Of a stretch of 55,838 nucleotides of DNA, positions 38,174-52,425 are shown piece by piece. Both the position numbers and the translations under genes were made by a program. Every line of letters starts with the position of its first letter. Position 1 is the first letter of the stretch. Source of the stretch: a virus. Below the pieces are notes generated by a model. That model was not told the origin of the DNA. It made no database searches and was given only the letters and a program-made list of their open reading frames with translations. Location of the stretch: IMG/VR virus record IMGVR_UViG_3300030329_002466, positions 1 through 55,838 of that record, one strand, 5' to 3'.

Positions 38174-40028
38174 ACTTATCACCAGTGCAAGCGTATTCCT
38201 TAGAACCGCCAGTTTCGTCCTGTAGTTCATAATCGGAAAGCTTGCTATAGTTAATTACGGGGAGGTCCTTTATAAGCCTTTTGTAAGTTCTAGCGTCAAT
38301 TTCTTCATAAGGAGCTAGTTCATAATGACCACCATCGTAAGGTAAAAATGAGACACCATTTATAATATCCCAATTCTTATATACCCAATTACCTACTTCA
38401 AACCACTCATCTTCCCTAACATACACAGTCATACTAGCGTTATGTTCACACCAATTATGTTGAAGGTTTTTATAATGTCTTAATTGTTCTAAAGCAGTTA
38501 CATCTTTACGAGTAATACAACCATCAGGTGATTTAACTGGAAATTCTAAAACCCAAGTAGAAGCGTCTTCTTTTGTTTGTCCTACTTCAGGAGTTGCTTT
38601 TATTCCACTATCTTTCATTAATCGAAATAATGGGTCACGGGAAGATATCCTATAACGACGGATATAGTATTGAGAGTATCTCGGATGTACTCCAGACGCA
38701 GAGTCAACAAGTTGTGAAACTGTACCACTAGGCTTCACACAGGTAGTCGCAACTGGCACATTTATATCTAAGACTTTAGCAGCCTTTCGAGAAATGCGCA
38801 AAACACGGCTTCTAAGGGCCTTTAAAGCGTCCGATGTCAATACCGAAGGGTTATCCATTTGACCTGTTAAACTAACGCCTAAAAGCCGTTCTACGTCACA
38901 ATTCTTTTTCCATGAATCCCTGAGATAGGGAAAATAGGTAAAAGTGCTTTGTATGACACCAAGCCATGTGGCAGTCTCAACTTTGTCTAAGAGCGAATCT
39001 AAGTCATCGTCTTCTCTCACCACTACTTCCGAAAGGTTACAGAATTCCATATCCCGCAACATTATTTCTCCACAGGGGTTTGTACCCTGTATTAGAGGAG
39101 CGTAACGTCTTGATGGAGCTTTGCTTTGTGCAGCATTTAGATTAAATATACCTCTTTCACCAGTGCCTGATAGAGCTAAGGAGCCCCATTCTCTTAAAAA
39201 TTCAGCAGCGGAAGGCTTTTCCCTGTATATAGCGCTGTTATTTGCCATAGCGCGTTTAATAGGGAAAGGCCAAACCTTTGCATGTCGCATGTCATCGTCA
39301 TCAAGGTCACTCAAAGAGATTTGTGAGCTGCGACGTACTCCACCCACTACTACGATTTCAGCAATCTGATTACAAATATCGTGAGCTTCTAACGTTGTGA
39401 GCTTTCGACCTTGGGCGTTGTGCATGGTTTCACGAATGAAATCATGTAACTTTATTAAGGGTGCAGGGCCTGATGCTCTACCACCCATTGTTCTGAGGCG
39501 AGCCCCCTCTGGTCTTATTATTGAATAATCAAAATATATATTTTGCCCATCATATAGGTTCTGCATGAGCATTTTTACAGAGTCCGCCCACCCCGCTTTA
39601 GAGTCAAATATAGGTATTTTTTCTAAAGCCTGTCCTGATTTAATAACTGGTATAATAGGTAATTGTTCTACCTCTTCTTTCTCTACTGAGAAACCAAAAC
39701 CAGTTCCACACATGAGTATATATAGACATTCTGCGAAAGCCTCTACAGAGTTAATTTTTGCAAATGCACAATTATAAATACAAGTGTTATCAAATTGAGC
39801 TGCTGGACCTGCTGCCCATAAAAATCTCATAGAAGGCATGACTGAAAATTCTGTCATATACTTTCTAATTTTACTTATTGTTTTCTCTGGAATATCTGGT
39901 CTTTTTGAAATTAAAAAAGTTATTAATCTTTCTATAGTTTCTGGCCAGTCTTCCCTTCTATTTTCCTCTTCCATCCATCTGGAATAGGTTCTTTTATATA
40001 TGAATTCTGCTACTTCGTTCTTAAACAT
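38163..40028 (-). CDS. nrdJ: Adenosylcobalamin-dependent (class II) ribonucleotide reductase
   Basis: 621 residues. It reduces ribonucleotides to deoxyribonucleotides using a B12-derived radical, feeding viral DNA synthesis. Visible hallmarks are NTCIYNCAF near residue 80, the active-site NPCGEI (Cys about 318, Glu about 320), GGVRRSSQISLSD, CVKPSGTVSQL and a C-terminal redox pair CTGDKC. The single-chain form with these motifs resembles the monomeric triphosphate reductase type but is shorter than the roughly 740 residues usual there. A TATA box at 40070-40078 and AAAGGA precede the ATG. No thioredoxin or oxygen-dependent small subunit is seen nearby, consistent with class II. Confidence 0.88.
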   Translation of the reverse strand: MFKNEVAEFIYKRTYSRWMEEENRREDWPETIERLITFLISKRPDIPEKTISKIRKYMTEFSVMPSMRFLWAAGPAAQFDNTCIYNCAFAKINSVEAFAECLYILMCGTGFGFSVEKEEVEQLPIIPVIKSGQALEKIPIFDSKAGWADSVKMLMQNLYDGQNIYFDYSIIRPEGARLRTMGGRASGPAPLIKLHDFIRETMHNAQGRKLTTLEAHDICNQIAEIVVVGGVRRSSQISLSDLDDDDMRHAKVWPFPIKRAMANNSAIYREKPSAAEFLREWGSLALSGTGERGIFNLNAAQSKAPSRRYAPLIQGTNPCGEIMLRDMEFCNLSEVVVREDDDLDSLLDKVETATWLGVIQSTFTYFPYLRDSWKKNCDVERLLGVSLTGQMDNPSVLTSDALKALRSRVLRISRKAAKVLDINVPVATTCVKPSGTVSQLVDSASGVHPRYSQYYIRRYRISSRDPLFRLMKDSGIKATPEVGQTKEDASTWVLEFPVKSPDGCITRKDVTALEQLRHYKNLQHNWCEHNASMTVYVREDEWFEVGNWVYKNWDIINGVSFLPYDGGHYELAPYEEIDARTYKRLIKDLPVINYSKLSDYELQDETGGSKEYACTGDKCDI

Positions 40029-40069
40029 TTTATCATTCCTTTGCGGTTCATTATTATAGTTTTTGAGAC

Positions 40070-40078
40070 TATAAAAGG
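40070..40078 (-). promoter_or_regulatory. TATA box for the ribonucleotide reductase gene
   Basis: On the minus strand CTTTTATAG preceded by AAACC, about 42 bases before the ATG at 40028. It is the most divergent member of the promoter set. Confidence 0.55.
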
Positions 40079-40084
40079 GTTTGC

Positions 40085-40168
40085 TTACTTGTAATTAGTT
40101 AAAGTTCTTTTAACACAACCACAAGGTTTTTTACAGTTGCATTTAGCTGATTGAGTTGTTGTAACCAT
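40085..40168 (-). CDS. Cys-rich 27-residue microprotein
   Basis: Encodes a 27-residue peptide whose core is KCNCKKPCGC, giving four cysteines as CxC...CxC. Its ATG shares one base with the stop of the upstream gene (TAATG), which supports real translation. The arrangement could hold one zinc or other soft metal ion, like a minimal metallothionein or zinc knuckle. No family is assigned. Confidence 0.55.
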   Translation of the reverse strand: MVTTTQSAKCNCKKPCGCVKRTLTNYK

Positions 40169-40527
40169 TATACTACAGTTCCAACCGAATATGCTACTGC
40201 AGTTATATGGGGGAATACATCACTTTCAACACTTACAGTTATAAATGTTTTACTTTCATCCACCATTCTTGTTATAATATTATCTAAAGTTTCACTACAA
40301 GCTTCTGCTCCGCCTTCAACAGTTATAGTAATTTTATCATCACTGACAGCAGATGCAGTTGAACCTGAAACAGGGACAGGTACACTAACAGTGCCTGTAG
40401 GATTCGTAGCATTTCTAACATATACATCTATATTAGTTGCACTTGTTACATATAAAGCTGTTACATCTTCTATACGATATGCATGTTGGTCAGTATCGCT
40501 ATCTACGAATTTAATAAATCTTACCAT
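40168..40527 (-). CDS. Small beta-rich protein, possibly virion-associated
   Basis: 119 residues with regular strands (YVTSATNIDVYVRNATNP; KITITVEGGAEAC; TFITVSVESDVFP). There are no catalytic motifs. It starts one base into the stop of the HNH gene and ends sharing a base with the Cys-rich microprotein, so these genes are translationally linked. The style resembles the protein at 37429-37914, and a capsid or tail decoration role is possible but unproven. Confidence 0.5.
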   Translation of the reverse strand: MVRFIKFVDSDTDQHAYRIEDVTALYVTSATNIDVYVRNATNPTGTVSVPVPVSGSTASAVSDDKITITVEGGAEACSETLDNIITRMVDESKTFITVSVESDVFPHITAVAYSVGTVV

Positions 40528-40922
40528 TATTTCTTTTTCCTAGTGTATTTACGTTTAGTAGTTTTACGTTTAGCTGGTGCTTTGCGTTTTTTGTTATTAC
40601 GTTTTCTAGCTGCTGCAGCTTTACGTCCTTTCTCAGGGTGTAATTTATTATGTTGTGCTGGTGTAACCTTCTTTAGATTACTTTTTCTAGCAGTTCTAGC
40701 GTTGTGTACTCCGGGTTTACCTTTTCCACCTTTACCACCACTCTTGTGGTGTACTACTTCACCTTTTCCTGCATTAGCTTTTCTTCTATAATAGTGAGCG
40801 GATTTACCACCTTTCCATGCACCATTCTGTTTACCAGTACGGGCCATTGGGGATTTTTTATTCCATCTCTTTTTTCTATTTGCGCTTGTATCTTTGAACT
40901 TTTTTCGTGCCACGTTTGGCAC
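40527..40922 (-). CDS. HNH endonuclease-like protein with very basic tail
   Basis: 131 residues. The middle contains GAWKGGKS, then VVHHKSGG (His58-His59), SNLKKVTPAQHNKLH (Asn82, His91, His95): the order WKGG...HH...N...H..LH is that of phage HNH nucleases. Both ends are extremely rich in Lys and Arg, and the last 35 residues are almost all K, R and A, like a histone H1 tail. It may nick or cut DNA at packaging or help condense it. An internal ATG (residue 26) could give a shorter form. It follows the acidic-tailed gene by 14 bases. Confidence 0.65.
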   Translation of the reverse strand: MPNVARKKFKDTSANRKKRWNKKSPMARTGKQNGAWKGGKSAHYYRRKANAGKGEVVHHKSGGKGGKGKPGVHNARTARKSNLKKVTPAQHNKLHPEKGRKAAAARKRNNKKRKAPAKRKTTKRKYTRKKK

Positions 40923-40936
40923 CCCCTTTTTTAGCT

Positions 40937-41302
40937 TTACTCTTCACTTTCTTCGGGAGCTTCTTGTTCTTCGGTGTCTTCTTCGACCACTTCTTCGCCA
41001 TTTTCGGCTTCTTCTTGTACAGATACTTCCTCTGGGCTTGACTCTTGAACGGCATTTTCTTGCTCTCTTGTTCTTATAAATTCATTCCATTGGTCCATCG
41101 CTTCTGTTTCATTTAAATATTCAGATAGATAATTTTGAAGTTGATTCAAATGCGCTTGCAATGATTCATAGTTTCTAGTCCTTTGTATAAGATAATTGAA
41201 TGTATCCAATGTACCTTCCGGACCTGCTATTGCTTCATTTTCATCTACCCATTGCTCTAACGTTTCAATACGTTTTTTCAGTCTTGTTAAATTTGCTGAC
41301 AT
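40937..41302 (-). CDS. Coiled-coil protein with acidic tail
   Basis: 121 residues. Residues 1-85 form a heptad-rich helix (LTRLKKRIETLEQWVDENEA; LQAHLNQLQNYLSEYL). Residues about 86-121 are nearly all Glu with a few Ser, Val and Asp. First gene of an operon led by a TATA box at 41323-41333. The acidic tail is complementary to the basic HNH protein encoded next, suggesting the two may pair, for instance as chaperone or inhibitor and client. That pairing is inference. Confidence 0.55.
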   Translation of the reverse strand: MSANLTRLKKRIETLEQWVDENEAIAGPEGTLDTFNYLIQRTRNYESLQAHLNQLQNYLSEYLNETEAMDQWNEFIRTREQENAVQESSPEEVSVQEEAENGEEVVEEDTEEQEAPEESEE

Positions 41303-41322
41303 ATTTATATACCTCTTTATTG

Positions 41323-41333
41323 CTATTTAAAGC
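41323..41333 (-). promoter_or_regulatory. Archaeal-type TATA box for the 41302 operon
   Basis: On the minus strand GGAAAAGCTTTAAATAG, about 25 bases before the ATG at 41302. Confidence 0.75.
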
Positions 41334-41339
41334 TTTTCC

Positions 41340-42413
41340 TTATTTACAGGTTTCATCCGTACAAATACCCATATCTTTCAAACGGGCACGTCCGTATCTT
41401 TTCACTTCTTTCATTTGCATCAGTCGTATTTGCTTACCTGCACGAGTTGGGTCATCTTCATACCACCCATAATCTCCTGCTGGTTCTTTGTAAATACTAC
41501 GAAATACAAAAGATATATCGGAGTCTCTCCAACCTGCATTGAGTAACTCCATAGCAATCACATTATTTTCTTCGTGACTGCTGTGACCTTCATCTATTTT
41601 TCGCTCTATTAGTTCCATTACACATTTTCTTGGAGGTTTAATGTATTGTCCTCTTCTAATATAACTACTTTCGTGAGTGTCTTTTTTTCTAATTTCACTC
41701 AATAAATATTCTACACTATTACTAACTGTGTGTGGAATATCATGTAAATCACACACGAAATCTAAAAAATCTCGTAATGCTCTTTTACTTTTACTTGTTT
41801 CTATTTCTTCTACGTTAGGAAGCTTAGAAGCCTCCATAATTTCATCCATGCTAAGACTAAGTATTTCCTTAGATGGAAACTGACGACAGTAATATCCATT
41901 TCTTTCTCCTGTTAATTTAGATACATAAGCAGTATTAGGATAACGCCTCATACATGAAACAGTGTTTTTAATACATACTTCATCTAAAGTTTTTAACTTA
42001 AATTTATTTTTTATGTGTGTGAGATATTCTCGTATAGCTTGTCTTTTTAGACTATTAGGTAGTTCTAATGGACACCAAAAATCTATATTCATTTGAAAAC
42101 CTCTACCACCTGTAAAATAAATACGTGGTTCTATATTATTAGGTTTACAGTATTTTCTATAAAACTTTCTTACATCTCTTAAACAATTTTCTATCTTTTT
42201 ATTATCATCAAAATCAAACCATATGGTATTCAGAACTGCACTTGTGTAATCTGTTTTACCCCCTTTTTCATATAAATCATCAAAGGTATATACACTTACA
42301 TAACAGTTTTTCTTTCCATCATACTGTTTCTTTTGTTCCTCAGCTTCTTCTACACTAAAACATCTAGCTATTCTTGCTGGTATTCCGAATTCTCTGTAAT
42401 ACATTTTTTCCAT
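41340..42413 (-). CDS. Archaeo-eukaryotic primase, PriS-like domain fused to PriL-like C-terminus
   Basis: 357 residues. The PriS-type catalytic site is visible as IWFDFDD (metal-binding Asp pair, about residue 64) and TGGRGFQ (about 103), followed by MRRYPNTAYVSK, which could supply the third motif. From about residue 260 the sequence (CVMELIERKIDEGHSSHEEN...LLNAGW; final GICTDETC) resembles the iron-sulfur C-terminal domain of PriL, with three of the usual cysteines visible. A single-chain primase of this type would synthesise primers for the viral PolB. It overlaps the HAD gene by 46 bases, and GAGGA precedes the ATG. Confidence 0.75.
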   Translation of the reverse strand: MEKMYYREFGIPARIARCFSVEEAEEQKKQYDGKKNCYVSVYTFDDLYEKGGKTDYTSAVLNTIWFDFDDNKKIENCLRDVRKFYRKYCKPNNIEPRIYFTGGRGFQMNIDFWCPLELPNSLKRQAIREYLTHIKNKFKLKTLDEVCIKNTVSCMRRYPNTAYVSKLTGERNGYYCRQFPSKEILSLSMDEIMEASKLPNVEEIETSKSKRALRDFLDFVCDLHDIPHTVSNSVEYLLSEIRKKDTHESSYIRRGQYIKPPRKCVMELIERKIDEGHSSHEENNVIAMELLNAGWRDSDISFVFRSIYKEPAGDYGWYEDDPTRAGKQIRLMQMKEVKRYGRARLKDMGICTDETCK

Positions 42414-42757
42414 TCCTCAAATAATTCTGCAATTATACTTACATTCTCATCATAATTATAATATTTTGCATTAGCTGGTGTTTCATTAACAAAAACTGGA
42501 TAGTCTGGTCTGTCGAATATTAATCTATCATAAGGTATTTCGTTTAATTCTAACCAAGTTTCAGTAGCCAATTTAACAGCTAAATCATTTGGTCTATTAC
42601 ACCATATAACTATGAGATGATTATTTCCTTTTAACCAATGCATAAATTGTGATACATTAGCTATAGGTTTACAACTTTTTATATAATCAACTATACCAAA
42701 CTGTATACCTTTGGCTGGGGTGCATATAACTCCATCTAAATCAAAAACAAAATGCAT
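42368..42757 (-). CDS. HAD-family phosphatase
   Basis: 129 residues. Motif I is FDLDGVIC at the N-terminus, motif II-like is LIVIWCNRP (about residue 50), and a lysine lies in TPANAKYYN. Together with IPYDRLIFDRPDYPVFV, this is the layout of small HAD type III phosphatases encoded by many viruses. The substrate is unknown: nucleotides, sugar phosphates or DNA 3'-phosphates are candidates, the last suggested by its coupling to primase. It starts within the stop of the preceding gene (TAATG). Confidence 0.7.
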   Translation of the reverse strand: MHFVFDLDGVICTPAKGIQFGIVDYIKSCKPIANVSQFMHWLKGNNHLIVIWCNRPNDLAVKLATETWLELNEIPYDRLIFDRPDYPVFVNETPANAKYYNYDENVSIIAELFEEWKKCITENSEYQQE

Positions 42758-42963
42758 TATTCTGCAGCAGCCTTAATAGCAATAATATCTTTTTTATTTA
42801 CTATGACAGTTCCTTTCTCTCCAGTTAAATAGACGAAGTTCTCATCGTCTTGTGTTATCTTTCCTCTTCCAACTTTCGTTTTATCTTCTTCTTTCCATAC
42901 TACCTTACAGTCACCTAAATCTTGCAAAGGTGGCGTTAGGGATTTCGCTTCTTTCTCTTCCAT
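42757..42963 (-). CDS. Small beta-barrel-like protein, function unknown
   Basis: 68 residues. After a charged N-terminus, the region CKVVWKEEDKTKVGRGKITQ...FVYLTGEKGTVIVNKKDIIAIK has the strand spacing of a small Sm- or SH3-like barrel. It is the first gene of the primase operon, 45-55 bases after a consensus TATA box. A nucleic-acid-binding role would suit the context, but no specific family is recognised. Confidence 0.5.
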   Translation of the reverse strand: MEEKEAKSLTPPLQDLGDCKVVWKEEDKTKVGRGKITQDDENFVYLTGEKGTVIVNKKDIIAIKAAAE

Positions 42964-43007
42964 ATGTATTCACCGACCATAAGGTCATATATTTATAATG
43001 AACAGTA

Positions 43008-43018
43008 CTATATAAAGC
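43008..43018 (-). promoter_or_regulatory. Archaeal-type TATA box for the primase operon
   Basis: On the minus strand GATAGCTTTATATAG, about 45 bases before the ATG at 42963, in the gap after the DNA polymerase stop. An inverted repeat ATGACCTTATGGTC lies between box and start, possibly a regulatory site. Confidence 0.7.
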
Positions 43019-43026
43019 TATCGTCG

Positions 43027-45246
43027 TTAAATAAACTCCATCAAACTCTTTTGTTTACTGTCTATTAAGGTCAAAGGTGGGTTTTTCTTACACCAATCGT
43101 CTAATTGAAATTTTTTCAGTAACTTAGTAATTACATCCCAATGATACTTCACATCAAGGTCTACTTTACTACTAACCAACTGTTCTATTTTATATCCATT
43201 CTTTGTTTTGTAATAGGAGAATGTTGTACCAATTTCAGGATTCATACCTATTTCTTCTCCTTGAGTAATCATTTGAACTATAAGGTCATTTTCAGATTTA
43301 TAGTCTTCTTTATTTCTATTCATACTTCTTCGTTGTAAGAAGTCTTCTAACTCATAATCATCCATAGAATATAAATTCTCTATAAATGTTGTATTAATTT
43401 TATTATCTAAACGAGCTTCTATAAGTTTGTCTAATGTTTTTATATAGAATTTAGAACGTGAACGACTTTTGAAAGTGCTACCATGTTTAGTTAAACTTCC
43501 ATCTTCATTTCTAAGAACGTAATTACCTATTTGTAACCAAAATCCTTCTTTGAATACGTCTTTATCCATTCTAATCCATTCGTCATTAGAATCAGGGAAT
43601 TTATTTTTTAATAATAATCTTAATCTATTTGTTAACCAGTCTACATCTATATCGCAATTTGTATTTATACCATCTGTGTGTACATATACAACACTATCTT
43701 CACCATACTTATTTCTTATTAATTCTACACCAGATAGTAATAACCATCTAGCTACAGCGGTTATAGTTATACCTACTCCCATATCTCCATAAGAAATATA
43801 AGGATTTGTATTTGCACCATAGAATGTATTTACCATTATCTTTAATGCGTTACTTTTACTATTAGCTTCTTTAGTTTTTAGTTTTTTCCAAGGCTTTCTC
43901 ATTTCCATGAACTGCTCAGAAATTTTATATAATACGCTTTTATCGCTGAAATCTAGTTTAACTAATACTCTTTTATTTATTTTATTATCTGGTATATACG
44001 CTATATCATCTTTAAATTCTATTTCATCCTTGTAATCTTCATAACCTACTATTTCACTCTTATCTGGTCCTAAGTTTAAAGCCATAGCAATAGAAGGATA
44101 GAAACCAGAAAAATCAGCTTTATAATTATCTTTATGGAATCCCGGACTATATAACTCTATATGCGCTGCTTGAAAATTACCCCTATCTGATTTAAATATC
44201 TCAGGATGTCTTTCTTTATTAAAATCTAATGTGAGTATATCTTGTTCAAATAATCCTCTTCCTTGAAGTATTTTAGTAATGAAACTAGCTGGGGCATTTA
44301 CATATGTTTCCAATGGAACGCCTAAAATTTCAGCTGTATATTCTATCTGAGGGAAGTAATGTTCGTATAGATGCTTTGTACAATCTACATCAGACAATAC
44401 ATACTCTTCTATTTCTTCTATAGAGTAGTCTAATAAATCTTTTCCATCGAAAGAGAGTTCTACTGGTGTTAAACCAAAAGCTTTCGAAACGCTTTTCAAT
44501 CCGCGGGGTAACCCGGATAAAGAATAATCAAGTCTAGCCCACCTGAGTAAATCAATATGCACTCTACCTCCTGCTTTCATTTTAAGGTCGTGTTGATTCT
44601 TAGGTGGTTCCCAACCATACTCAGTACCATCTCTATTTAGTAATTTCTTATAGTTTTCTAATCCATGGTATCTTGCTCTATGTAATATCTGCGGAATATC
44701 ATACCCTACATGATTCCAACCATATATAATATCTGGGTCATACTCTTTTATATATTCTGCAAATTTAATTATAACATTTTTATCGTCTTCTCCATCCCAT
44801 AATAGGACGTCCCTCTCTCCTGTTGAGGTGACAATTCCGATTGCCACCACTGGGTACTTTTCCCCGAACGGAAAACTACCATCAGGGCTATGCGTTTCAA
44901 TATCAAACCCTAAGCATTTTAATGGGGCTTCATTAGGGAAGTCTAAAAAGAACTCAGGATGCTCAATACAGAGTCTCTCAAGTAGATGCTCCCTACCACC
45001 TTCGAATAAAGCATTAGGAGCTATGATATCTCTATTAGGCACATAGGGGACCTTAGTTAAGCTCTGTGGCTCTGTATAGCCTAATACTCTCTTAGTAGAG
45101 CCCTCGGGGTGCGATACGTAGTAATAAGGTTGATACGGAACAGTTGCAGCCTGTTTATGACCGTTACGATACATAAGGCACTGGAGTTCGCCTGTCTTCA
45201 TATTGCGTGTGTTAGGGGATAGTATCCCGATTAATGGTACTTTCAA
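43027..45246 (-). CDS. polB: DNA polymerase, family B
   Basis: 739 residues with 3'-5' exonuclease and polymerase halves. Exo I is FDIETH (about 114), Exo II is WNHVGYDIP and Exo III is YVLSDVDC. Polymerase motif A is DFSGFYPS (about 375), motif B is KIMVNTFYGA (about 469) and motif C is YVHTDGIN (about 522). Motif C is HTDG instead of the usual DTDS: the second, essential Asp is kept but the first is His. The start codon is TTG, immediately after the stop of a zinc-ribbon gene whose end provides GGAGA. It is the last gene of the operon that also holds helicase-like, prenyl synthase and MazG genes. No separate clamp or clamp loader is seen in the window. Confidence 0.92.
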   Translation of the reverse strand: MKVPLIGILSPNTRNMKTGELQCLMYRNGHKQAATVPYQPYYYVSHPEGSTKRVLGYTEPQSLTKVPYVPNRDIIAPNALFEGGREHLLERLCIEHPEFFLDFPNEAPLKCLGFDIETHSPDGSFPFGEKYPVVAIGIVTSTGERDVLLWDGEDDKNVIIKFAEYIKEYDPDIIYGWNHVGYDIPQILHRARYHGLENYKKLLNRDGTEYGWEPPKNQHDLKMKAGGRVHIDLLRWARLDYSLSGLPRGLKSVSKAFGLTPVELSFDGKDLLDYSIEEIEEYVLSDVDCTKHLYEHYFPQIEYTAEILGVPLETYVNAPASFITKILQGRGLFEQDILTLDFNKERHPEIFKSDRGNFQAAHIELYSPGFHKDNYKADFSGFYPSIAMALNLGPDKSEIVGYEDYKDEIEFKDDIAYIPDNKINKRVLVKLDFSDKSVLYKISEQFMEMRKPWKKLKTKEANSKSNALKIMVNTFYGANTNPYISYGDMGVGITITAVARWLLLSGVELIRNKYGEDSVVYVHTDGINTNCDIDVDWLTNRLRLLLKNKFPDSNDEWIRMDKDVFKEGFWLQIGNYVLRNEDGSLTKHGSTFKSRSRSKFYIKTLDKLIEARLDNKINTTFIENLYSMDDYELEDFLQRRSMNRNKEDYKSENDLIVQMITQGEEIGMNPEIGTTFSYYKTKNGYKIEQLVSSKVDLDVKYHWDVITKLLKKFQLDDWCKKNPPLTLIDSKQKSLMEFI

Positions 45247-45354
45247 TTATTCTCCTAGATTTCTTTGGTATTCCATTTCTCTACATTCGAAACAAACGTC
45301 GTCATCAAAGTTTGTATTATGTTGTCCACATTTAGTACACTTTCTAAATTTCAT
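45247..45354 (-). CDS. Zinc-ribbon microprotein before DNA polymerase
   Basis: 35 residues with CTKCGQ...CFEC, a complete two-knuckle CxxC/CxxC zinc ribbon. The ATG overlaps the MazG stop (ATGA), and its TAA directly precedes the TTG start of the polymerase, so it is locked between them by translational coupling. It may bind DNA, polymerase or another replication protein, but this is inferred from position only. Confidence 0.7.
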   Translation of the reverse strand: MKFRKCTKCGQHNTNFDDDVCFECREMEYQRNLGE

Positions 45355-45710
45355 CTCTTGTCTCCAGAACCCTTCAATACATCTCGAGCTTTTCTGTCTG
45401 CGAGTTTTTGAAAGTTTCTGTGGAGCACTTCCTGATGAGTTAAATCATAGTGGTCCATTAACCTTGCGAGATACCAACATACATCACCTAACTCATCAAG
45501 TTTGTCAGTAACCTTCTTTCCATCTCCACGTATTTCTTTTTTAAATTTACCAAGTAGTTCACCTACTTCACTAGCCAATCCGAGCATTAAATACTCTTCT
45601 TCTTTTTCTTCAGGGTAGACCGCAGTTGTTTTGGTCCAGTCCTGATATGTTGCCCAATCCATTTCTCTTTGTTCCTGTGTTAATTTTGCATAATGTTCTA
45701 ATTCTGTCAT
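45351..45710 (-). CDS. MazG-like nucleotide pyrophosphohydrolase
   Basis: 119 residues with the MazG metal-binding pattern ExxE (Glu48, Glu51 in ASEVGEL) and ExxD (Glu73, Asp76 in DELGDVCWYLA). Such enzymes hydrolyse NTPs or dNTPs to monophosphates and are common in viruses, where they may clean the nucleotide pool or lower alarmone levels. The start overlaps the prenyl-synthase stop (ATGA). The length is typical of single-domain viral forms. Confidence 0.82.
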   Translation of the reverse strand: MTELEHYAKLTQEQREMDWATYQDWTKTTAVYPEEKEEEYLMLGLASEVGELLGKFKKEIRGDGKKVTDKLDELGDVCWYLARLMDHYDLTHQEVLHRNFQKLADRKARDVLKGSGDKR

Positions 45711-46300
45711 TTTTCACCTAATATTTCTTCTGCTATTTTGTTATACATTTTGTTTGCCATTAATATAGGTTGTCTTAATTTAGGGTCTATATAATGTAAA
45801 CCTTCCATACCTTTCTTAAGTTCTTCTCTAAACATATTAGCATATAGAGTATGGTTATCTGTTATATAATGGTATCCCTTTGCTACATCTTCTTTATAAT
45901 CTCTCACAAAGTTAATTATTTGGTATGCCCTACCTAAAGACCTAGCGTATTGGTCTGCTTGAGAAGGACAACCAAGTATACGAGCCATCATTAAACCTAC
46001 TGATTCAGAAGACCCTTTACAATATTCTAACATAGATTGTACTGTATGCTCTTTTTGAACTAAATCAGTAAACATAGATTGATGAAAGTCTTGAAGCCAT
46101 TCTCCCTTGAATTCATATTTATCACTTACTTCGTGAAAATTTTCTATTACCTTTCTCCATTCCTTAGTGTTAAATAAATCTCCACCTTCAACCATTTCGT
46201 CTATTACTCTCAGGTAAGAGTAAAGTTTATATATATCTTCCTGTATATTTTCAGGCCATTCCTTTACGCACTCAATAAATGTAGTGCTATATTTTTTCAT
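45707..46300 (-). CDS. Squalene/phytoene synthase family protein (head-to-head prenyl synthase)
   Basis: 197 residues. Family features appear in order: LYSYLRVIDEMVE (first acidic motif, Asp34...Glu38, normally DxxxD), a middle Asp79 in FTDLVQ, LEYCKGSSESVGLMMARILG (the usual Y-C...VG helix), and GRAYQIINFVRDYKEDV (second motif DxxxD at 134-138). These residues bind the magnesium-diphosphates of two prenyl substrates, so the core looks catalytically intact. The protein is shorter than the usual 270-350 residues, ending soon after motif two. Squalene, phytoene or a related C30/C40 product is possible. I chose the ATG at 46300 because it overlaps the preceding stop (TAATG) and follows GGAAG. 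46312 and 46324 are alternatives. Its TGA overlaps the MazG start. Confidence 0.8.
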   Translation of the reverse strand: MKKYSTTFIECVKEWPENIQEDIYKLYSYLRVIDEMVEGGDLFNTKEWRKVIENFHEVSDKYEFKGEWLQDFHQSMFTDLVQKEHTVQSMLEYCKGSSESVGLMMARILGCPSQADQYARSLGRAYQIINFVRDYKEDVAKGYHYITDNHTLYANMFREELKKGMEGLHYIDPKLRQPILMANKMYNKIAEEILGEK

Positions 46301-46419
46301 TATTTCTTCCATTCCAATCTCCATAATACATATTCAGTCATAATAAATGTCCAAAACATTCCAAATATAATTATATCTAAATGGTTAGGACTATTATATT
46401 CAGTTAACCAATTTATCAT
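46300..46419 (-). CDS. Small single-pass membrane protein
   Basis: 39 residues with one hydrophobic segment (LDIIIFGMFWTFIM) flanked by a short N-terminal region and a basic end. It overlaps the upstream gene by an ATGA and shares its stop with the prenyl-synthase start. Linked translation with a prenyl synthase suggests it might anchor that enzyme at the membrane where its substrates lie. That is speculative. Confidence 0.5.
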   Translation of the reverse strand: MINWLTEYNSPNHLDIIIFGMFWTFIMTEYVLWRLEWKK

Positions 46420-46589
46420 AATTTTATATCTCTATATTCGTCTGCAGATAAAAAACCTGACAGTGTTCCTCTTCCTGCTATATTTCTTCTCATATATCTA
46501 ATAAAGTCTATTGTTACTTCTAATCCTTTATCTTCTAATTCTTCATTTATAAACTGCAAATGATTTATTAAATCTTCTATTACTATCAT
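46416..46589 (-). CDS. Small protein, function unknown
   Basis: 57 residues, helical N-terminus (VIEDLINHLQFINEELEDKG) and a polar end (RGTLSGFLSADEYRDIK). Both ends are joined to neighbours by ATGA overlaps, which is the main support for it. No family is recognised. Confidence 0.5.
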   Translation of the reverse strand: MIVIEDLINHLQFINEELEDKGLEVTIDFIRYMRRNIAGRGTLSGFLSADEYRDIKL

Positions 46590-46864
46590 CCTGCTGGTCC
46601 TTTATTATATTGTGGCATATCATCGAACATACCTTGGTCTGCTGCTATCTGTATTAATAATATAGCATCTTCTATAGCTGACGAACAAGCAAGATGAAAC
46701 ATTTCTTCTGAATTTGGTTCAGCACCAAGTATTTCACTCTTATGTTCCATAGCCATTTGCTGATGAAACATACTAGAATGTTCTAATAAGGAAAGCCACT
46801 TGCCTCTTTCTTCTTCTGTATTATCTGCTGTCAATTTTTTTGATTTTTTCGATATCTTTTTCAT
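46586..46864 (-). CDS. Small helical protein, function unknown
   Basis: 92 residues with a Lys-rich start and a helical core (WLSLLEHSSMFHQQMAMEHK; ACSSAIEDAILLIQIAADQG). It overlaps the end of the ATPase gene by 44 bases and the next gene by an ATGA. Its place between helicase and polymerase suggests an accessory replication role, not provable from sequence. Confidence 0.5.
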   Translation of the reverse strand: MKKISKKSKKLTADNTEEERGKWLSLLEHSSMFHQQMAMEHKSEILGAEPNSEEMFHLACSSAIEDAILLIQIAADQGMFDDMPQYNKGPAG

Positions 46865-48299
46865 TGTAGTCTCCTGTTGCTAATAATAAAAACTTTGTCA
46901 TATCTCCATCCCAAAGCTTCTCGTCGTCTTTACTTTTAAAAGGAGGTGTAACGTCTTTATCTATAGTTTCTATATCTATCGCTGTCTTTGCTCCTTTACC
47001 CAGTTTAATGTTGTCCCCACTAAACGGGTCAACAATCTCGAAACTGCCACAAAAGCGCCCAGTGTATTCGCTACTGATTTCAGGCCACTTTTCTCGTACA
47101 AACTCTTCTGTTTTTTCAATTAACTCACTCCATTGTATCTTTTTTGAAGGGTCACTAATTAAAGGACTCTTAAAATATTTAGTCTTACCTTTCTCAGTTT
47201 CATCCATTTCTAAGAAACCAGTCATCACTAATGCGGAAAGGACTGGTCTTAATTTAGTGAAAGGTAATCCTGCTCTTTTTGCTTCTTTCTTTATTTCTGC
47301 TTCTGTTAATTTAACAACGTCAGCAGACATCCCAAATTTGTCTAATGATGTATCTGGGAATAACTGTAATATATCTGTACCATGACTAGGCATATGAAGA
47401 CATTCGGAGATAAAAGTGTCTAAATATATGCGTAGCGCCAACCAATTATGTTTAGGTGTAACTAAACCATAAGTCACACCATCCCGTTCTACCCGTAATA
47501 TTTCATCGTCATAGAACCTAGCCACAGCGTTTATTAGTTTTAATAAGTATTGAACCTTAGAACGTGATACTGGAAATATAGATGGTATTGCTTCCATTAG
47601 GAAAGGCGCACAGGGATTGCGTAGTTGCATAGCGCGTTCATCGTCCCTGCGTCCTATTGCGTCTAACATATGCTGTTTCAAACCACTGATTTCATCATCA
47701 CTCATAGTGAGTAACTCTTTCTTAGGAAGAGCAACATGCATCAACTTATGTTTAATAACGCTTTCTGTTTGTTTAGCAGTAGGATTAGTGTGCCCAATCA
47801 TACATCTGCGTTCCAATTCAGCGTCAAAATACGCTGAACCTTTATCATTTTCCACTGCTACACACATAAAGACAAATTTTGGATGTAACGTCTGTTCCAC
47901 CGTTTCACCAATAGTGACATCCGTTCTTTTCCTGAACGCTGGACGGCCATCACCCCATGTCTTTATAACTTCCATTACACCTTCTGGTAATTTCTGAGCT
48001 TCAGGTATCGCTACAAAGCGCGCCCTGTTTATCTTCTCAGCTTCATACCATACGGCCGTTTCGGAAAGGTGTTCTATTGTGTGGTAATATTCAGTCGGTA
48101 GTAGATTGAAGACGGCATCCATTATCACTGTCTTTCCAGTTCCACTATACGCTTTAATTACCATATTGTTATCCTCTAATAAGTAAGCTAAAGCAGAAGT
48201 AACTGCTAATTTATCTTCACCTATTATAGGATTAAGTTCACCTTTCTTATTACGTACATTATGAAAGTATCGTACTAAGTCATGTAATTCGTATTTCAT
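46821..48299 (-). CDS. AAA+ ATPase, probable replicative helicase, MCM-like
   Basis: 492 residues. Walker A is AYSGTGKT (about 50-57). The Walker B position reads RFVAIPEAQ (about 93-101), with Pro-Glu where Asp-Glu is usual. FVFMCVAVEND could supply sensor 1, and the AELERRCMIGHTN segment corresponds to the arginine-finger region (compare LLSRFDL of MCM). The C-terminal part contains winged-helix-like segments (LTEAEIKKEAKRAGLPFTKL). Given PolB and primase nearby and no other helicase, it is the best candidate for the replicative helicase. The N-terminal MCM domain is absent, so it is a minimal, divergent form. Its start overlaps the upstream small gene. Confidence 0.65.
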   Translation of the reverse strand: MKYELHDLVRYFHNVRNKKGELNPIIGEDKLAVTSALAYLLEDNNMVIKAYSGTGKTVIMDAVFNLLPTEYYHTIEHLSETAVWYEAEKINRARFVAIPEAQKLPEGVMEVIKTWGDGRPAFRKRTDVTIGETVEQTLHPKFVFMCVAVENDKGSAYFDAELERRCMIGHTNPTAKQTESVIKHKLMHVALPKKELLTMSDDEISGLKQHMLDAIGRRDDERAMQLRNPCAPFLMEAIPSIFPVSRSKVQYLLKLINAVARFYDDEILRVERDGVTYGLVTPKHNWLALRIYLDTFISECLHMPSHGTDILQLFPDTSLDKFGMSADVVKLTEAEIKKEAKRAGLPFTKLRPVLSALVMTGFLEMDETEKGKTKYFKSPLISDPSKKIQWSELIEKTEEFVREKWPEISSEYTGRFCGSFEIVDPFSGDNIKLGKGAKTAIDIETIDKDVTPPFKSKDDEKLWDGDMTKFLLLATGDYNEKDIEKIKKIDSR

Positions 48300-48475
48300 T
48301 CTTTCTCATTTAAATATTTAGACACTAATTTTATACTATCTCTCAATGATTCATTATCGGTATTTTCAGCTACTTCAAAATCTAAATCCGCTAACATCAT
48401 TTTAGCTACCTTTGGTGTCATATAATTTAATATAATACTCATTATATGTATTGCTTCAAGTCTTGTTGTTACCAT
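48296..48475 (-). CDS. Small helical protein leading the replication operon
   Basis: 59 residues from the ATG at 48475 (helical, TRLEAIHIMSIILNYM and SLRDSIKLVSKYLNEK). An in-frame TTG at 48493 would extend it, but the TATA box at 48496-48506 places the expected transcription start at about 48475, so a leaderless ATG is the better choice. It ends in an ATGA overlap with the ATPase gene. Function unknown. Confidence 0.6.
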   Translation of the reverse strand: MVTTRLEAIHIMSIILNYMTPKVAKMMLADLDFEVAENTDNESLRDSIKLVSKYLNEKE

Positions 48476-48479
48476 ATAC

Positions 48480-49247
48480 CTATAACCCCGCAACTCTATT
48501 TAAAGCTACCTGTAAGTAATTATCTGACTGGTCAATAGTAATAATCCCTCTACCAAGTCTCAATGCTGATGCAGCTGTGCTACCTGTTCCACAGAACGGG
48601 TCAAGCACTACATCGCCTTCATTACTAGAAGCTTTGATTAATATATCTAATAACTCTTCAGGTATTTGATTCATTGATGAAATACCGTCAGGAGTTCTAA
48701 ACTTCTGCTTCTCAGGATGAGTATGTTGCACTACATTAATGTCTGTAAACCAATCATAACTTGGCCTTCCGGCTCTACCATGCTTTTTAATTGCTTCCTG
48801 AACGTGCTTCTGCTTTAATGAGCTTTCAGGATAAGGGATTAGTATATCTTCCCCATTAAATGTATAGTCTTTCTTATTCTTGGTAAAGTATAAAACACCT
48901 CGTTGAGCTTGAACATAATTATTCAATGTATGTCCATAGTTCATCTTATAAGGCCACGTTAACCATCTTCGGAAATGCCCATGTTCCATACATGGTTCCC
49001 AATAATAGTTAGCCAATGTCTCCTGATAGGCTATTACATATAGACTACCAGTTGGTTTTAACACTCTAAAACACTCTTCAATCCATTCTGCGACCCAAGT
49101 GTCATAGTCTTTTCTGCGGTCGTCGATACCACCAGCATACTTCCACCCTATATTATAAGGTGGGTCAGTGACAATCAGGTCTATACTTTCACTTTCGATA
49201 GTTTTAATTCTATCTGTTACTTCTCCACATAGGAATTCTCTTTTCAT
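48480..49247 (-). CDS. DNA methyltransferase (N4-cytosine or N6-adenine type)
   Basis: 255 residues with TDPPYN at 28-32 (catalytic motif IV) before DPFCGTGST at about 216-224 (the AdoMet-binding motif I). This order marks the beta class of amino-methyltransferases. The full-length enzyme looks intact. The target sequence cannot be read from motifs. No restriction partner is adjacent, so it is probably an orphan viral enzyme protecting the genome. It starts in an ATGA overlap with the upstream gene. Confidence 0.88.
   Translation of the reverse strand: MKREFLCGEVTDRIKTIESESIDLIVTDPPYNIGWKYAGGIDDRRKDYDTWVAEWIEECFRVLKPTGSLYVIAYQETLANYYWEPCMEHGHFRRWLTWPYKMNYGHTLNNYVQAQRGVLYFTKNKKDYTFNGEDILIPYPESSLKQKHVQEAIKKHGRAGRPSYDWFTDINVVQHTHPEKQKFRTPDGISSMNQIPEELLDILIKASSNEGDVVLDPFCGTGSTAASALRLGRGIITIDQSDNYLQVALNRVAGL
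48496..48506 (-). promoter_or_regulatory. Archaeal-type TATA box for the replication operon
   Basis: On the minus strand GGTAGCTTTAAATAG, inside the 3' end of the methyltransferase gene and about 25 bases before the ATG at 48475. It would drive the ATPase, prenyl synthase, MazG, zinc-ribbon and polymerase genes. Confidence 0.75.
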
Positions 49248-49915
49248 TCTACACTCTCCACTGCCTTTCTCAAATCTAAAACGCCATTCTCACATAGTTT
49301 AATAGCGTATTTTCTAATATCATTTTCATCTACCCTCGGAAAGTCGTTTTTGATTTTCAAAAACAAGTCTATCATATTCATAGGCTCACCATCCAATGGA
49401 CGTAAAGCAGATACTATTTCTTGGGGCATGAGGTATTTCCCTTCTGTAAATAATGATGGTCTTTCTCTTTCACTTTTGAACACTGGTTCATCTGTGGCTT
49501 CAAGAGAATATCCATTAACTGATTCTCCAGCTACAATTTCTATCTTACCCCGATTAACTTTAAAAAGTATATCACAGGGGTTCTTACCTTCATCCAGAAT
49601 TTGTCTAAACAATGTCTGAAATACAGTATGAGTAGACAGAGTTGTGCTGAGATAGTGTATCTCAGACCCAACACTGGGATAAATCCCATAAGTGTATTCT
49701 TTAATCTGAGGAACATTTTTTTCACAGTGGAAACACCTCTTCCCTTCGTCTATCCAACATTTTACACGTCTGCTATCTTTTTCATACCAATGCATTACCT
49801 TATATAAAGGATTAATGTATGCGAATTGGGTCAAAGCCGTCATAGAATCTGCTAACCAGACTCTCTTACTTTGTTTCGATTTTATCCAATCCGAATACCC
49901 CGCAGTCATGCTCAT
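49244..49915 (-). CDS. Zinc-binding protein with winged-helix C-terminus, function unknown
   Basis: 223 residues. A putative zinc site CWIDEGKRCFHC lies near residues 52-64. The middle (TYGIYPSVGSEIHYLSTTLS; CDILFKVNRGKIEIVAGE) has the strand pattern of a beta-barrel, and the last 50 residues (LFLKIKNDFPRVDENDIRKY AIKLCENGVLDL) look like a winged helix. This combination would suit a single-stranded-DNA-binding protein such as a divergent RPA, and no other such protein is obvious here. That role is inference. ATGA overlaps on both sides. Confidence 0.5.
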   Translation of the reverse strand: MSMTAGYSDWIKSKQSKRVWLADSMTALTQFAYINPLYKVMHWYEKDSRRVKCWIDEGKRCFHCEKNVPQIKEYTYGIYPSVGSEIHYLSTTLSTHTVFQTLFRQILDEGKNPCDILFKVNRGKIEIVAGESVNGYSLEATDEPVFKSERERPSLFTEGKYLMPQEIVSALRPLDGEPMNMIDLFLKIKNDFPRVDENDIRKYAIKLCENGVLDLRKAVESVE

Positions 49916-50277
49916 TTGATATTTATACTTACACCCTTATCTGCTACTGCCTTTTTCAATTTAACATCTAAAACGCCGTTCTTATATGTAGCTTTAGAGG
50001 AGTCTGCATCAACCTTACAAGGCAATCTTTTAGTTGAGTTGTGTTTTCTCTCATCTTGTTCTGCCTTAATGGTGATGTGGTTTTCGTTTACCTTTAACTC
50101 TAGATTCTTCTTATCGAATCCGGGTAAGTCAATAGTAACGAAGACTTCATCCTCGCTTTGCTCTATAGTTCCGGGCCATTTAGATTGTGAAAAGGGCTTG
50201 GTTATACTCTTATGTGGGACTTGTGCCTCAATAAGGTCTAACCATGCATCAAGGAGATTATCTATATCTCTTATCAT
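49912..50277 (-). CDS. hsp20: Small heat shock protein, Hsp20/alpha-crystallin family
   Basis: 121 residues. The alpha-crystallin domain spans about 35-121: EDEVFVTIDLPGFDKKNLEL, then ENHITIKAEQDER, and the signature ATYKNGVLDVKLKK (A-x-x-x-NGVL). It lacks the long N-terminal arm and C-terminal I-x-I extension of many family members, though SINIK at the end may stand in for it. Such proteins hold unfolded proteins, in a virus perhaps capsid or tail proteins during assembly. It lies in the operon of methyltransferase and putative DNA-binding protein. Confidence 0.9.
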   Translation of the reverse strand: MIRDIDNLLDAWLDLIEAQVPHKSITKPFSQSKWPGTIEQSEDEVFVTIDLPGFDKKNLELKVNENHITIKAEQDERKHNSTKRLPCKVDADSSKATYKNGVLDVKLKKAVADKGVSINIK

Positions 50278-50287
50278 ATTTCACCTC

Positions 50288-50500
50288 TTAGTCGTTCTGT
50301 GTTCCTGAACCGACGGGTATTCGCTTGTGCAATCGGAAGTAAGGCTTGTTATCGTCACCTTCTTTCCAGTAAGCGTTGCGGAATAGGATATAATGTTCTC
50401 CTGATTCACTCTTTCCAGAGTAATACACATCGCCTTTCTTGCTCTTGTTACGGAATAGTCCGCCAATCAGTACTAATTCAGTTTTTTCATTTTCTGCCAT
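50288..50500 (-). CDS. Small basic protein, function unknown
   Basis: 70 residues. Strand-rich layout (ELVLIGGLFRNKSKKGDVYYSG; EHYILFRNAYWKEGDDNKPY) with aromatic and basic residues that could bind nucleic acid, somewhat like small phage DUF736-type proteins. It leads an operon whose TATA box is at 50536-50546. An AAGAGG site precedes the ATG. Confidence 0.55.
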   Translation of the reverse strand: MAENEKTELVLIGGLFRNKSKKGDVYYSGKSESGEHYILFRNAYWKEGDDNKPYFRLHKRIPVGSGTQND

Positions 50501-50535
50501 TTTTAGTTACCTCTTTCTTTACCATAGTTTATGGT

Positions 50536-50546
50536 CTATTTAAAGC
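50536..50546 (-). promoter_or_regulatory. Archaeal-type TATA box overlapping a stop codon
   Basis: On the minus strand GCAAAAGCTTTAAATAG. The final TAG is also the stop codon of the upstream gene, which ends KSFK. It drives the operon starting at 50500. Confidence 0.75.
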
Positions 50547-50829
50547 TTTTGCTTCCTTTTATCTTTACTAGTTTACCAGTTTTAGGATTCATAGTCCATC
50601 CATGTTCCTTAACTTTATCTAGTAAAGCATCTTTGTATAAAGACTCTTCTTCTTTCTTAGCGACGAACGCTTCTAAAGATGGGTCTCTCAACTCTAATAA
50701 ACAGTTCCCACACACAATCTTACTATTTTTAAAAACTGCTTGGGAATGTTGTATTGATGCTTCTGAATTATAAATCACATCTCTACAAAAGACACATCTA
50801 CCTAATTCTGCACCATTATTCTCTTTCAT
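50536..50829 (-). CDS. Zinc-finger protein
   Basis: 97 residues with CVFC (12-15) and CGNC (40-43), forming one probable four-Cys zinc site, then a charged helix and a basic C-terminus (GKLVKIKGSKSFK). The first knuckle resembles treble-clef fingers. It overlaps the preceding gene by 14 bases. Its stop codon lies in the next operon's TATA box. Confidence 0.6.
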   Translation of the reverse strand: MKENNGAELGRCVFCRDVIYNSEASIQHSQAVFKNSKIVCGNCLLELRDPSLEAFVAKKEEESLYKDALLDKVKEHGWTMNPKTGKLVKIKGSKSFK

Positions 50830-50956
50830 GTAAATTACTAATCTCCGTTACGAAATGTTTCCCACATGGTTCACATTCCCATTTATGTGTTCCACCACCA
50901 TAATAAACTTTGTCGAGTGGATGTCCACATATAGGACAATTATCAGTATAACTCAT
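50816..50956 (-). CDS. Zinc-ribbon microprotein
   Basis: 46 residues with CPICGH and CEPCGK: a textbook two-knuckle zinc ribbon. The ATG at 50956 overlaps the stop of the preceding membrane microprotein (ATGA), so I prefer it to upstream in-frame starts at 50980 and 51013. Confidence 0.65.
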   Translation of the reverse strand: MSYTDNCPICGHPLDKVYYGGGTHKWECEPCGKHFVTEISNLHERE

Positions 50957-51075
50957 GCCCAAATGAACATCCACATCCATATCATCATAAAAAATGATAA
51001 TAACATATACCACATAGCTTCATTCATAGAGGTGGGATAATTCCATAACCATTTTATAGTTTCTGTTCTTTTCAT
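50953..51075 (-). CDS. Small membrane protein
   Basis: 40 residues; the second half (MWYMLLSFFMMIWMWMFIW) is one strongly hydrophobic, Met/Trp-rich membrane segment. ATGA overlaps join it to both neighbours. Function unknown. Confidence 0.55.
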   Translation of the reverse strand: MKRTETIKWLWNYPTSMNEAMWYMLLSFFMMIWMWMFIWA

Positions 51076-51179
51076 AAAATCCATACACCAACAATCATAC
51101 CTATACAATATCCAAATATCATACCTGATATATAGTCTACTACTCTTTGCTTTCTATCTTCAGTCCAGAATTTACTCAT
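51072..51179 (-). CDS. Small membrane protein
   Basis: 35 residues: a charged start (MSKFWTEDRKQR) and a hydrophobic, Gly-rich segment (ISGMIFGYCIGMIVGVWIL) able to span a membrane once. It overlaps the upstream zinc-ribbon gene and is joined by an ATGA to the next one. Confidence 0.55.
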   Translation of the reverse strand: MSKFWTEDRKQRVVDYISGMIFGYCIGMIVGVWIL

Positions 51180-51258
51180 TTCCACCACAATGTGGGCAGT
51201 TAAAATTATGTGATTTTTTCATACCAACATAATCTCTACCACACCTCACACATCTCAT
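51172..51258 (-). CDS. Zinc-ribbon microprotein, 28 residues
   Basis: 28 residues with CVRCGR and CPHCGG, a minimal zinc ribbon with almost nothing outside the metal site. ATGA overlap with the upstream microprotein supports translation. Confidence 0.6.
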   Translation of the reverse strand: MRCVRCGRDYVGMKKSHNFNCPHCGGNE

Positions 51259-51371
51259 ATTAACAGCCTCTGATAACATACGTGACAATATGCATTACCA
51301 GCAGTGTCCCTATATCTTACATAATTCAGAGCTAATCTGCATTTACAAGTATTACAAGCTGTGAATTCCAT
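51255..51371 (-). CDS. Zinc-ribbon microprotein, 38 residues
   Basis: 38 residues with CNTCKC and CHVC knuckles, likely one zinc site with an extra Cys. It begins one base after the preceding stop and ends in an ATGA overlap. Confidence 0.6.
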   Translation of the reverse strand: MEFTACNTCKCRLALNYVRYRDTAGNAYCHVCYQRLLI

Positions 51372-51372
51372 T

Positions 51373-51657
51373 TTATCCGTGCATGTGTGCTGAAGGTTTC
51401 TTTCGTCCACCTTCATCGTGTAAAATCCTAGCTTTTAAAACTTCTTCACCGTATAAGTTGTGAAGTTTCTCTATCATGTGGTCGAAGAACTTAGTTACAT
51501 CGCTACCATCCGGCACTACTTCAATTTCACATACGCCTAATCTTAATCTATGAACTGCTGATAATTCAGCTTGAGCTGCATCCATTTTAGCTTGTAAAAC
51601 ATCATGCACTAAGTCTGCTATCAACTTCTCGTCATTTTCAGAAGATGAATCTGTCAT
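51373..51657 (-). CDS. Helical protein, function unknown
   Basis: 94 residues, acidic N-terminus, long helix (KLIADLVHDVLQAKMDAAQA...), a short beta part (CEIEVVPDG) and a His/Lys-rich end. No family is recognised. It overlaps the coiled-coil gene upstream by 20 bases. Confidence 0.5.
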   Translation of the reverse strand: MTDSSSENDEKLIADLVHDVLQAKMDAAQAELSAVHRLRLGVCEIEVVPDGSDVTKFFDHMIEKLHNLYGEEVLKARILHDEGGRKKPSAHMHG

Positions 51658-51868
51658 CTATAACCTCTAGTTTAATTAATATTTTTCTCAAATTTTTCAC
51701 CATTCCGGTTGTTTCGCCAATCATATTTTCTAAATCGTTTAACTCTTCTTTAAGAACTTTCATCTCAGCTAATATATCTTCCATATTCTGAACGAAAGGC
51801 CACCAATCACTTGCTAGGTCTGCGTTTCTTTTTCTTATTTGTTCTCGTAAATCTTCTTGGTTTTCCAT
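51638..51868 (-). CDS. Coiled-coil protein
   Basis: 76 residues with heptads throughout the second half (MEDILAEMKVLKEELNDLEN; VKNLRKILIKLEVI). Possibly an oligomerisation or adaptor protein. It overlaps genes on both sides. Confidence 0.5.
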   Translation of the reverse strand: MENQEDLREQIRKRNADLASDWWPFVQNMEDILAEMKVLKEELNDLENMIGETTGMVKNLRKILIKLEVIDDRFIF

Positions 51869-52091
51869 ATTTATCTTTTCCTAATCTTCTCATTAAGCTT
51901 TGACTTTTCATAGGATTACAATGAACAGTAGTCCCTCTATCATTAAAAGGACGAATATAACCCATATAATAATCTCGACAGTTCTCTTTAGTTGGTTCTA
52001 AACCTCGACAGATTACTTTTTGCATTATAGTCTGTCTAGATTTAGGACTTTCCTTATTCCAAATGATATCGAAGTCGTTCCACTTACTCAT
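51807..52091 (-). CDS. Basic protein, function unknown
   Basis: 94 residues with three cysteines and one histidine spread through the middle (VICRGLE, ENCRDYY, VHCNP) and a Lys/Arg-rich C-terminus that probably binds nucleic acid. ATGA overlap with the upstream gene, 62-base overlap with the downstream one. Confidence 0.5.
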   Translation of the reverse strand: MSKWNDFDIIWNKESPKSRQTIMQKVICRGLEPTKENCRDYYMGYIRPFNDRGTTVHCNPMKSQSLMRRLGKDKYGKPRRFTRTNKKKKRRPSK

Positions 52092-52417
52092 ACTATCATT
52101 CTGTCAATACGATAGGAACGTGGGTGGTCATTTTTATATTGACTTTGGTATTGTTTAAGGTTATATCTATTCTCATAACCTCTTACCAAAATATCTCCAC
52201 TACCACTAACATATAGTTCTTCAGGTAAAATCATTCTAGGACTATCTTCTTGACTGTCATGTTTCCATGATGAAAAGTCAAAAGGAGTTCTCTTTTCTGC
52301 TTTGTATCTGAAAACTACTTGCTTGTGTTTTCCTGTCTTATTGTAGTGATTAATAGCCTCTACAATAGTCTTTAACATTCCGTTAATTTTTCTTGGTTCG
52401 CTTTTCATTTTTTTCAC
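52088..52417 (-). CDS. WYL-like small protein
   Basis: 109 residues. The second half (ELYVSGSGDILVRGYENRYN, then SYRIDRM) has the layout of WYL domains, in which a strand-turn-strand ends in an FRxDRI-like motif that can sense nucleic acid or nucleotides. The first half begins with a helix (NGMLKTIVEAINHYNKT), and KHKQVVFRYKAEKRT fits the opening strand. No DNA-binding helix-turn-helix is attached. First gene of its operon, with a TATA box at 52447-52458. Confidence 0.5.
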   Translation of the reverse strand: MKKMKSEPRKINGMLKTIVEAINHYNKTGKHKQVVFRYKAEKRTPFDFSSWKHDSQEDSPRMILPEELYVSGSGDILVRGYENRYNLKQYQSQYKNDHPRSYRIDRMIV

Positions 52418-52425
52418 CTCTTGGT

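Follow-up and report, generated by a model that had tools for sequence, protein, structure and literature searches.

We examined a 55,838-nt window of viral DNA (the whole stretch analyzed, positions 1 to 55,838 of record IMGVR_UViG_3300030329_002466) whose gene content is that of a tailed virus. Portal, major head protein and tape measure genes lie on its plus strand, and RNR, primase-like, PolB, AAA+, methylase and HSP20 genes on its minus strand. Between the AAA+ ATPase (46821-48299, minus strand; phrog_12057, 7e-34) and the family B DNA polymerase (PolB; 43027-45246, minus strand; Pfam and PHROGs), the same strand encodes a 201-aa SQS_PSY-family protein at 45707-46312, assigned from its Pfam match, a start conserved in relatives, and its AlphaFold2 fold with Foldseek comparison. 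Conservation among the relatives sets the homologous start at the ATG at 46312 (MKEIMEEYSTTF..., MEEIMKKY...), and further in-frame ATGs occur at 46324 and 46300. The initial annotation had the protein start at 46300, with 197 aa; that ATG is internal, and relatives begin at the position of 46312.

The SQS_PSY gene is tightly packed against its minus-strand neighbors. Its stop and the start of a MazG-like nucleotide pyrophosphohydrolase (45351-45710, minus strand; Pfam MazG 2.6e-5, phrog_229 4.5e-24) have the ATGA at 45707-45710 in common, and its start is overlapped by a 39-aa membrane microprotein recognized from its sequence (46300-46419, minus strand); both overlaps had been proposed before and are real. 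In the synteny table, the minus strand continues with a 57-aa conserved small protein (MIVIEDLI..., 46416-46589), which lies near the SQS gene in several relatives, and a 92-aa conserved small protein of the same cassette (46586-46864). The overlapping genes are presumably co-transcribed. A motif search of the relatives found the membrane microprotein beside the SQS_PSY gene only in the window and in L003. In two records (L013:7989-8675 and L015:7989-8675), the SQS open reading frame is extended, without a change of frame, by a Cys-rich tail, WICNCE(Y/H)GHQNCKCDGKTG, which in other relatives lies within, or as separate, small ORFs beside the SQS gene.

The host is likely an archaeon, judging by gene sequences, because the AAA+, portal, HSP20 and primase genes all lean archaeal. 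Haloarchaeal tailed viruses supply all of the phage-collection matches to the AAA+ ATPase (53 of 53, tblastn), and haloarchaeal viruses account for 8 of the 11 weak matches to the portal. The top-scoring HSP20 model is archaeal, with a score under that model's cut-off, and the putative archaeo-eukaryotic-type primase (41340-42413, minus strand) weakly matches archaeal PriS 1zt2 (E 0.038). The monomeric B12-dependent RNR (38163-40028) has its best phage-collection matches in Rhizobium and Roseobacter phages (~49%), in contrast to the archaeal look of other window genes. Two adjoining small proteins at 40527-41055 are very Lys/Arg-rich and possibly DNA-condensing. No host link was found via tRNA. 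A search for spacer-like DNA between 232 methanogen-class genomes and window positions 36000-55838 returned five weak matches of 33-43 nt, three of them at a single spot within the DNA methylase gene, and these were not taken as CRISPR spacers.

Family membership, fold and active site

The protein matches Pfam SQS_PSY (PF00494) with E=3e-28 (99.7 bits versus a cut-off of 26), and the same match is found in all 21 aligned viral relatives; the best stretch covers profile positions 2-172 of 263, short of the full-length domain with its C-terminal helices. A PDB search with a profile built from 21 viral copies hits CrtM-like (2e-13) and phytoene synthase (4e-12) entries. An AlphaFold2 model built on the 21-copy viral alignment (pLDDT 88.4, pTM 0.86) is predicted to adopt the all-alpha isoprenoid-synthase fold, with CrtM-like, CrtM and HpnC structures as best Foldseek matches (TM 0.80-0.84) and YisP (TM 0.77) and CqsB4/LvqB4 (TM 0.58-0.66) lower. 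Among BFVD viral protein structures, there was no match at E below 0.001. A chance ORF or a wrong family is ruled out by the Pfam match, the AlphaFold2 fold and Foldseek.

Because profile, fold and tree all put the viral protein in the SQS_PSY family, it is a shortened member of that family. The squalene/phytoene-synthase membership proposed in the initial annotation is thus upheld by profile, predicted structure and phylogeny together; the profile search does not lead to an unrelated helical family, and the all-alpha prenyl synthase fold is present (pLDDT 88, TM up to 0.84). Viral copies have ~200-225 aa versus ~280-317 aa in cellular enzymes, and the window protein is ~85 residues shorter. 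In alignment to CrtM, the viral proteins have internal deletions and are without the segment after motif 2 and the C-terminal part. No NCBIfam equivalog cut-off is reached (CrtB 37 versus 480 bits, HpnD 56 versus 279, HpnC 46 versus 250 and squal_synth 23 versus 287), and HpnD is the top-scoring model (2.4e-15). This ranking does not discriminate, because HpnD is also the best model for methanogen crtB-cluster genes, which lie beside a phytoene-desaturase-like gene; these genes likewise score under the CrtB cut-off (70-89 versus 480).

The motifs recognized earlier are present on the minus strand and invariant in the family bar small changes. They comprise the first acidic motif, RVIDEMVE (46187-46210), whose R35, D38 and E42 correspond in the CrtM alignment to R45, D48 and D52; FTDL (46061-46072), whose Asp (D83) is invariant in cellular relatives as well; the YCKGSSESVG helix (45995-46024), whose Y97 aligns with CrtM Y129; and the second acidic motif QIINFVRDYKED (45887-45922), which includes RDYKED and is invariant among all 22 viral and all 37 cellular sequences compared. 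In the second motif, Q131, N134, R137, D138 and D142 are the equivalents of CrtM Q165, N168, R171, D172 and D176. The earlier description was right that the first motif is acidic, but that motif is DxxxE rather than DxxxD. The description also passed over the Tyr in place of Arg beyond motif 2, the internally deleted segments and the absent C-terminus.

In CrtM numbering, R45, D48, Y129, Q165, N168, R171, D172, D176, Y183 and Y248 are identical in all 22 viral copies. D52 is replaced by Glu in the main viral clade and remains Asp in basal viral copies, and the Mg2+-ligand positions are acidic or Asn in every viral copy. The Arg of the GRxY motif (CrtM R181), present in all 37 cellular sequences, has given way to Tyr or Phe in all 22 viral copies (Y147 in the window, 45872-45874, minus strand), and three basal viral copies already carry Tyr in its place. 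Relative to CrtM, the main viral clade also has Tyr/Phe for H18, Thr for K20 and no R265 region; where CrtM has F26, main-clade copies carry Met, Val or Leu and the basal ones Thr. The squalene synthase of Trypanosoma has its S2 diphosphate in contact with a Ser-Arg-Ser stretch and its S1 diphosphate next to the Asp motif; the squalene synthase Arg that matches CrtM K20 contacts the S2 diphosphate (PMC4006925), and CrtM R265 contacts diphosphate in models (PMC13304436). By alignment, the S1/Mg2+ side of the viral enzyme appears intact and its S2 side altered. The K20 and R265 changes are not in themselves a sign of lost function, because methanogen carotenoid-cluster enzymes show them too (Thr at the K20 position in 7 of 15, and Lys instead of Arg at 265).

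Distribution and ancestry of the viral gene

Scans of IMG/VR found the SQS_PSY gene in the window and at least 25 related viral contigs, 26 records in all. A pattern scan of 2.9 million viral contigs, using viral and cellular sequences, yielded 22 relatives with identities of 46-69%. Because all 22 are of the same lineage by identity and neighborhood, the scan met no other phytoene synthase of its motif type among these contigs. Among close pairs of viral copies, Nei-Gojobori dN/dS is mostly 0.02-0.13; the gene is under strong purifying selection, which rules out a decaying gene. Host contamination or a chimera is also ruled out, as the gene stands among virus genes in the 26 records and in several arrangements. 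PADLOC returned no match, leaving a defence-gene reading unsupported. Two unannotated Staphylococcus phage entries in INPHARED (OR849911 and OR844999) contain a CrtM-like gene, probably from bacterial DNA in the deposit.

The viral gene occurs in at least three different arrangements, at varied positions in the early region and alongside two quite different PolBs. In the three closest relatives (PolB 76-78% and AAA+ 82-86% identity), the AAA+-PolB interval contains a single 151-aa ORF in place of the small-protein/SQS/MazG cassette (L129:1186-1641, L130:957-1412 and L131:9549-10004); from its sequence, this ORF looks like a GIY-YIG nuclease. Because the closest relatives hold this ORF instead and the gene's position varies, the SQS_PSY gene is part of an accessory cassette that is mobile but selected. 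Its embedding in a replication operon, as initially described, is true of the window but is not the rule. The contig that carries L131 and L136 (IMGVR_UViG_3300037195_000659, 31 kb) has two AAA+-PolB cassettes of different divergence and opposite orientation, either a co-assembly error or a real duplication. In two other records (L004:4833-9418 and L005:4269-8211), PolB is separated from the next conserved gene by a cassette that, judging by sequence, encodes putative 2OG-Fe(II) oxygenases (prolyl-hydroxylase-like) and glycosyltransferase-like proteins.

Trees of 60 and 51 sequences unite the viral copies in a single clade (100/100). This clade is sister to phytoene synthases from methanogen genomes (97/95, rising to 99/96 with basal viral copies added), a placement that holds for sampling outside Thermoplasmatota (including Poseidoniales) and Thermoproteota and may change with them; the comparison with archaeal sequences envisaged at the outset thus joins the viral clade to methanogen crtB. 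The nearest cellular relatives were established by profile search and trees, and an exact-pattern genome scan with the viral-only alignment found none. The methanogen sister genes are flanked by a phytoene-desaturase-like gene on one side and a UbiA-like gene on the other (crtI-crtB-ubiA clusters), and McrA is present in 11 of the 11 tested genomes that carry them. Such clusters in McrA-bearing genomes were seen at L114, L115, L118, L119 and L121. The three basal viral copies, 46-48% identical to the copy in the window, are intermediate sequences: they retain the motif-1 Asp, have Thr where CrtM has F26 and extend further at the C-terminus. They plausibly mark steps by which an archaeal phytoene synthase became the short viral protein. 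A long stem branch (~2 changes per column) leads to the viral clade, as expected if function changed.

Proposed reaction and its alternatives

Archaeal membranes are built on an isoprenoid backbone, and GGPP, on which archaea mainly run, is the precursor of archaeal ether lipids. Across the 26 viral records, of which some are partial, we found no match to CrtI (Amino_oxidase), GGPP synthase (polyprenyl_synt) or UbiA. A virus-borne carotenoid pathway therefore finds no support from these three families. Because these partners were not found, the viral enzyme must use host substrates, and then either feed host enzymes or end the path itself. This suggests that viruses carrying the gene tap the host's isoprenoid (lipid, pigment) supply.

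The viral protein is very probably catalytically competent in some way. We put at about even odds (roughly 0.5) that tailed archaeal viruses have captured an archaeal phytoene synthase, which acts alone on host GGPP to produce phytoene. In this reaction, Mg2+ held by the two acidic motifs would ionize the first prenyl diphosphate in the S1 site, and the prenyl cation would combine with a second prenyl diphosphate to form a cyclopropyl intermediate. The intermediate would then yield a C40 hydrocarbon, most likely with two GGPP as substrates and phytoene as product. Because no other isoprenoid gene was found in the virus, the enzyme would act at a host branch point, diverting GGPP, the ether-lipid precursor, into C40 hydrocarbons; these could be made into carotenoid or retinal by the host's enzymes, or be left in the membrane.

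The family and fold matches, the retained S1/Mg2+ residues, the low dN/dS and the methanogen crtB sister group support a phytoene synthase. The loss of the GRxY Arg, Thr at K20, the missing counterpart of R265 and the absence of ~85 residues weigh against it. In CrtM, F26 limits the enzyme to C15 substrates, and its replacement by Ala, Ser or Leu opens CrtM to GGPP and a C40 product (PMC13304436). By analogy, the non-Phe residues at this position in the viral copies would favor a C40 over a C30 product.

The same pattern of a retained S1 side and changed S2-side positions in the main clade (K20, the GRxY Arg and the R265 region) could instead reflect a possible but less likely role as a repurposed prenyl transferase or phosphatase, in which S1 ionizes a prenyl diphosphate and the altered S2 side takes a small aromatic, a nucleotide, a protein or water. 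The long viral stem branch, the presence of CqsB4, LvqB4 and YisP among the Foldseek matches, and the nucleotide-metabolism neighbors MazG and RNR are consistent with such a change. However, CqsB4/LvqB4 match much worse than CrtM (TM 0.58-0.66 versus 0.80-0.84), Y248, R171 and Y129 are kept, and methanogen carotenoid-cluster enzymes also have Thr at 20 and a non-Arg residue at 265. More tentatively still, the captured phytoene synthase may have become a new type of SQS/PSY-fold enzyme, a prenyl transferase of ~200 residues with S1 kept and S2 rebuilt that attaches or hydrolyzes host GGPP for a virus-specific purpose; if true, an archaeal membrane-lipid precursor could, for example, be drained, or a non-isoprenoid target prenylated.

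A C30 synthase, altering membrane lipids by making squalene, dehydrosqualene or presqualene diphosphate from FPP, is improbable: HpnD is the best-scoring NCBIfam model and CrtM and HpnC are the best folds, but HpnD ranks equally best for the methanogen genes beside a phytoene-desaturase-like gene, the F26 position is not Phe, and archaea use mainly GGPP. A non-catalytic SQS-fold scaffold or lipid-binding factor, which the shortening and the lost basic residues might hint at, is very unlikely given the acidic or Asn residues at the Mg2+-ligand positions of every viral copy and the strong purifying selection.

Comparison with known systems

A captured phytoene synthase would have its closest counterpart in the CrtB of methanogen crtI-crtB-ubiA clusters, which shares with the viral copies the GS(A/S)E-(V/I)(V/I)G...LG(R/K)A-Q--NF(I/V)RD core and all S1/Mg2+ residues. 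The methanogen enzymes have ~280-317 aa and are clustered with pathway genes, whereas the viral copies have ~200-225 aa, are solitary, and are without the post-motif-2 segment and the GRxY Arg. CrtM and HpnC are the best structural matches (TM 0.80-0.84); unlike them, the viral protein has no counterparts of H18, K20 and R265, and Met, Val, Leu or Thr replaces the size-limiting F26. The carbazole prenyltransferases CqsB4/LvqB4 and YisP also have the SQS fold, are by their database names neither phytoene nor squalene synthases, and offer a model for a changed acceptor; their fold similarity to the viral protein (TM 0.58-0.66 and 0.77, respectively) is lower than that of CrtM.

In the literature searched, with incomplete coverage of Poseidoniales-virus papers, we found no description of SQS/PSY in prokaryotic viruses, and neither PHROGs nor BFVD yielded one. 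With a minimal copy of the enzyme conserved on its own throughout a viral lineage, it becomes testable whether archaeal viruses rewire GGPP flow, with pigment, retinal, membrane hydrocarbons or a new prenylation as possible ends. The viral protein is also the smallest SQS/PSY-family protein among those compared here, and lends itself to working out which elements of the fold are required for catalysis.

Phytoene synthase is known in two groups of giant viruses of protists, together with a whole retinal pathway (PMC6792449). Like the window virus, the ChoanoViruses and cPacV-1605 encode the synthase, to which they add phytoene dehydrogenase, lycopene cyclase, a beta-carotene-cleaving enzyme and rhodopsin (PMC6792449). 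The window virus is, in contrast, a tailed virus with a solitary short enzyme. The family and fold are known; the setting, the reduced size and the lineage-specific active-site change are new here.
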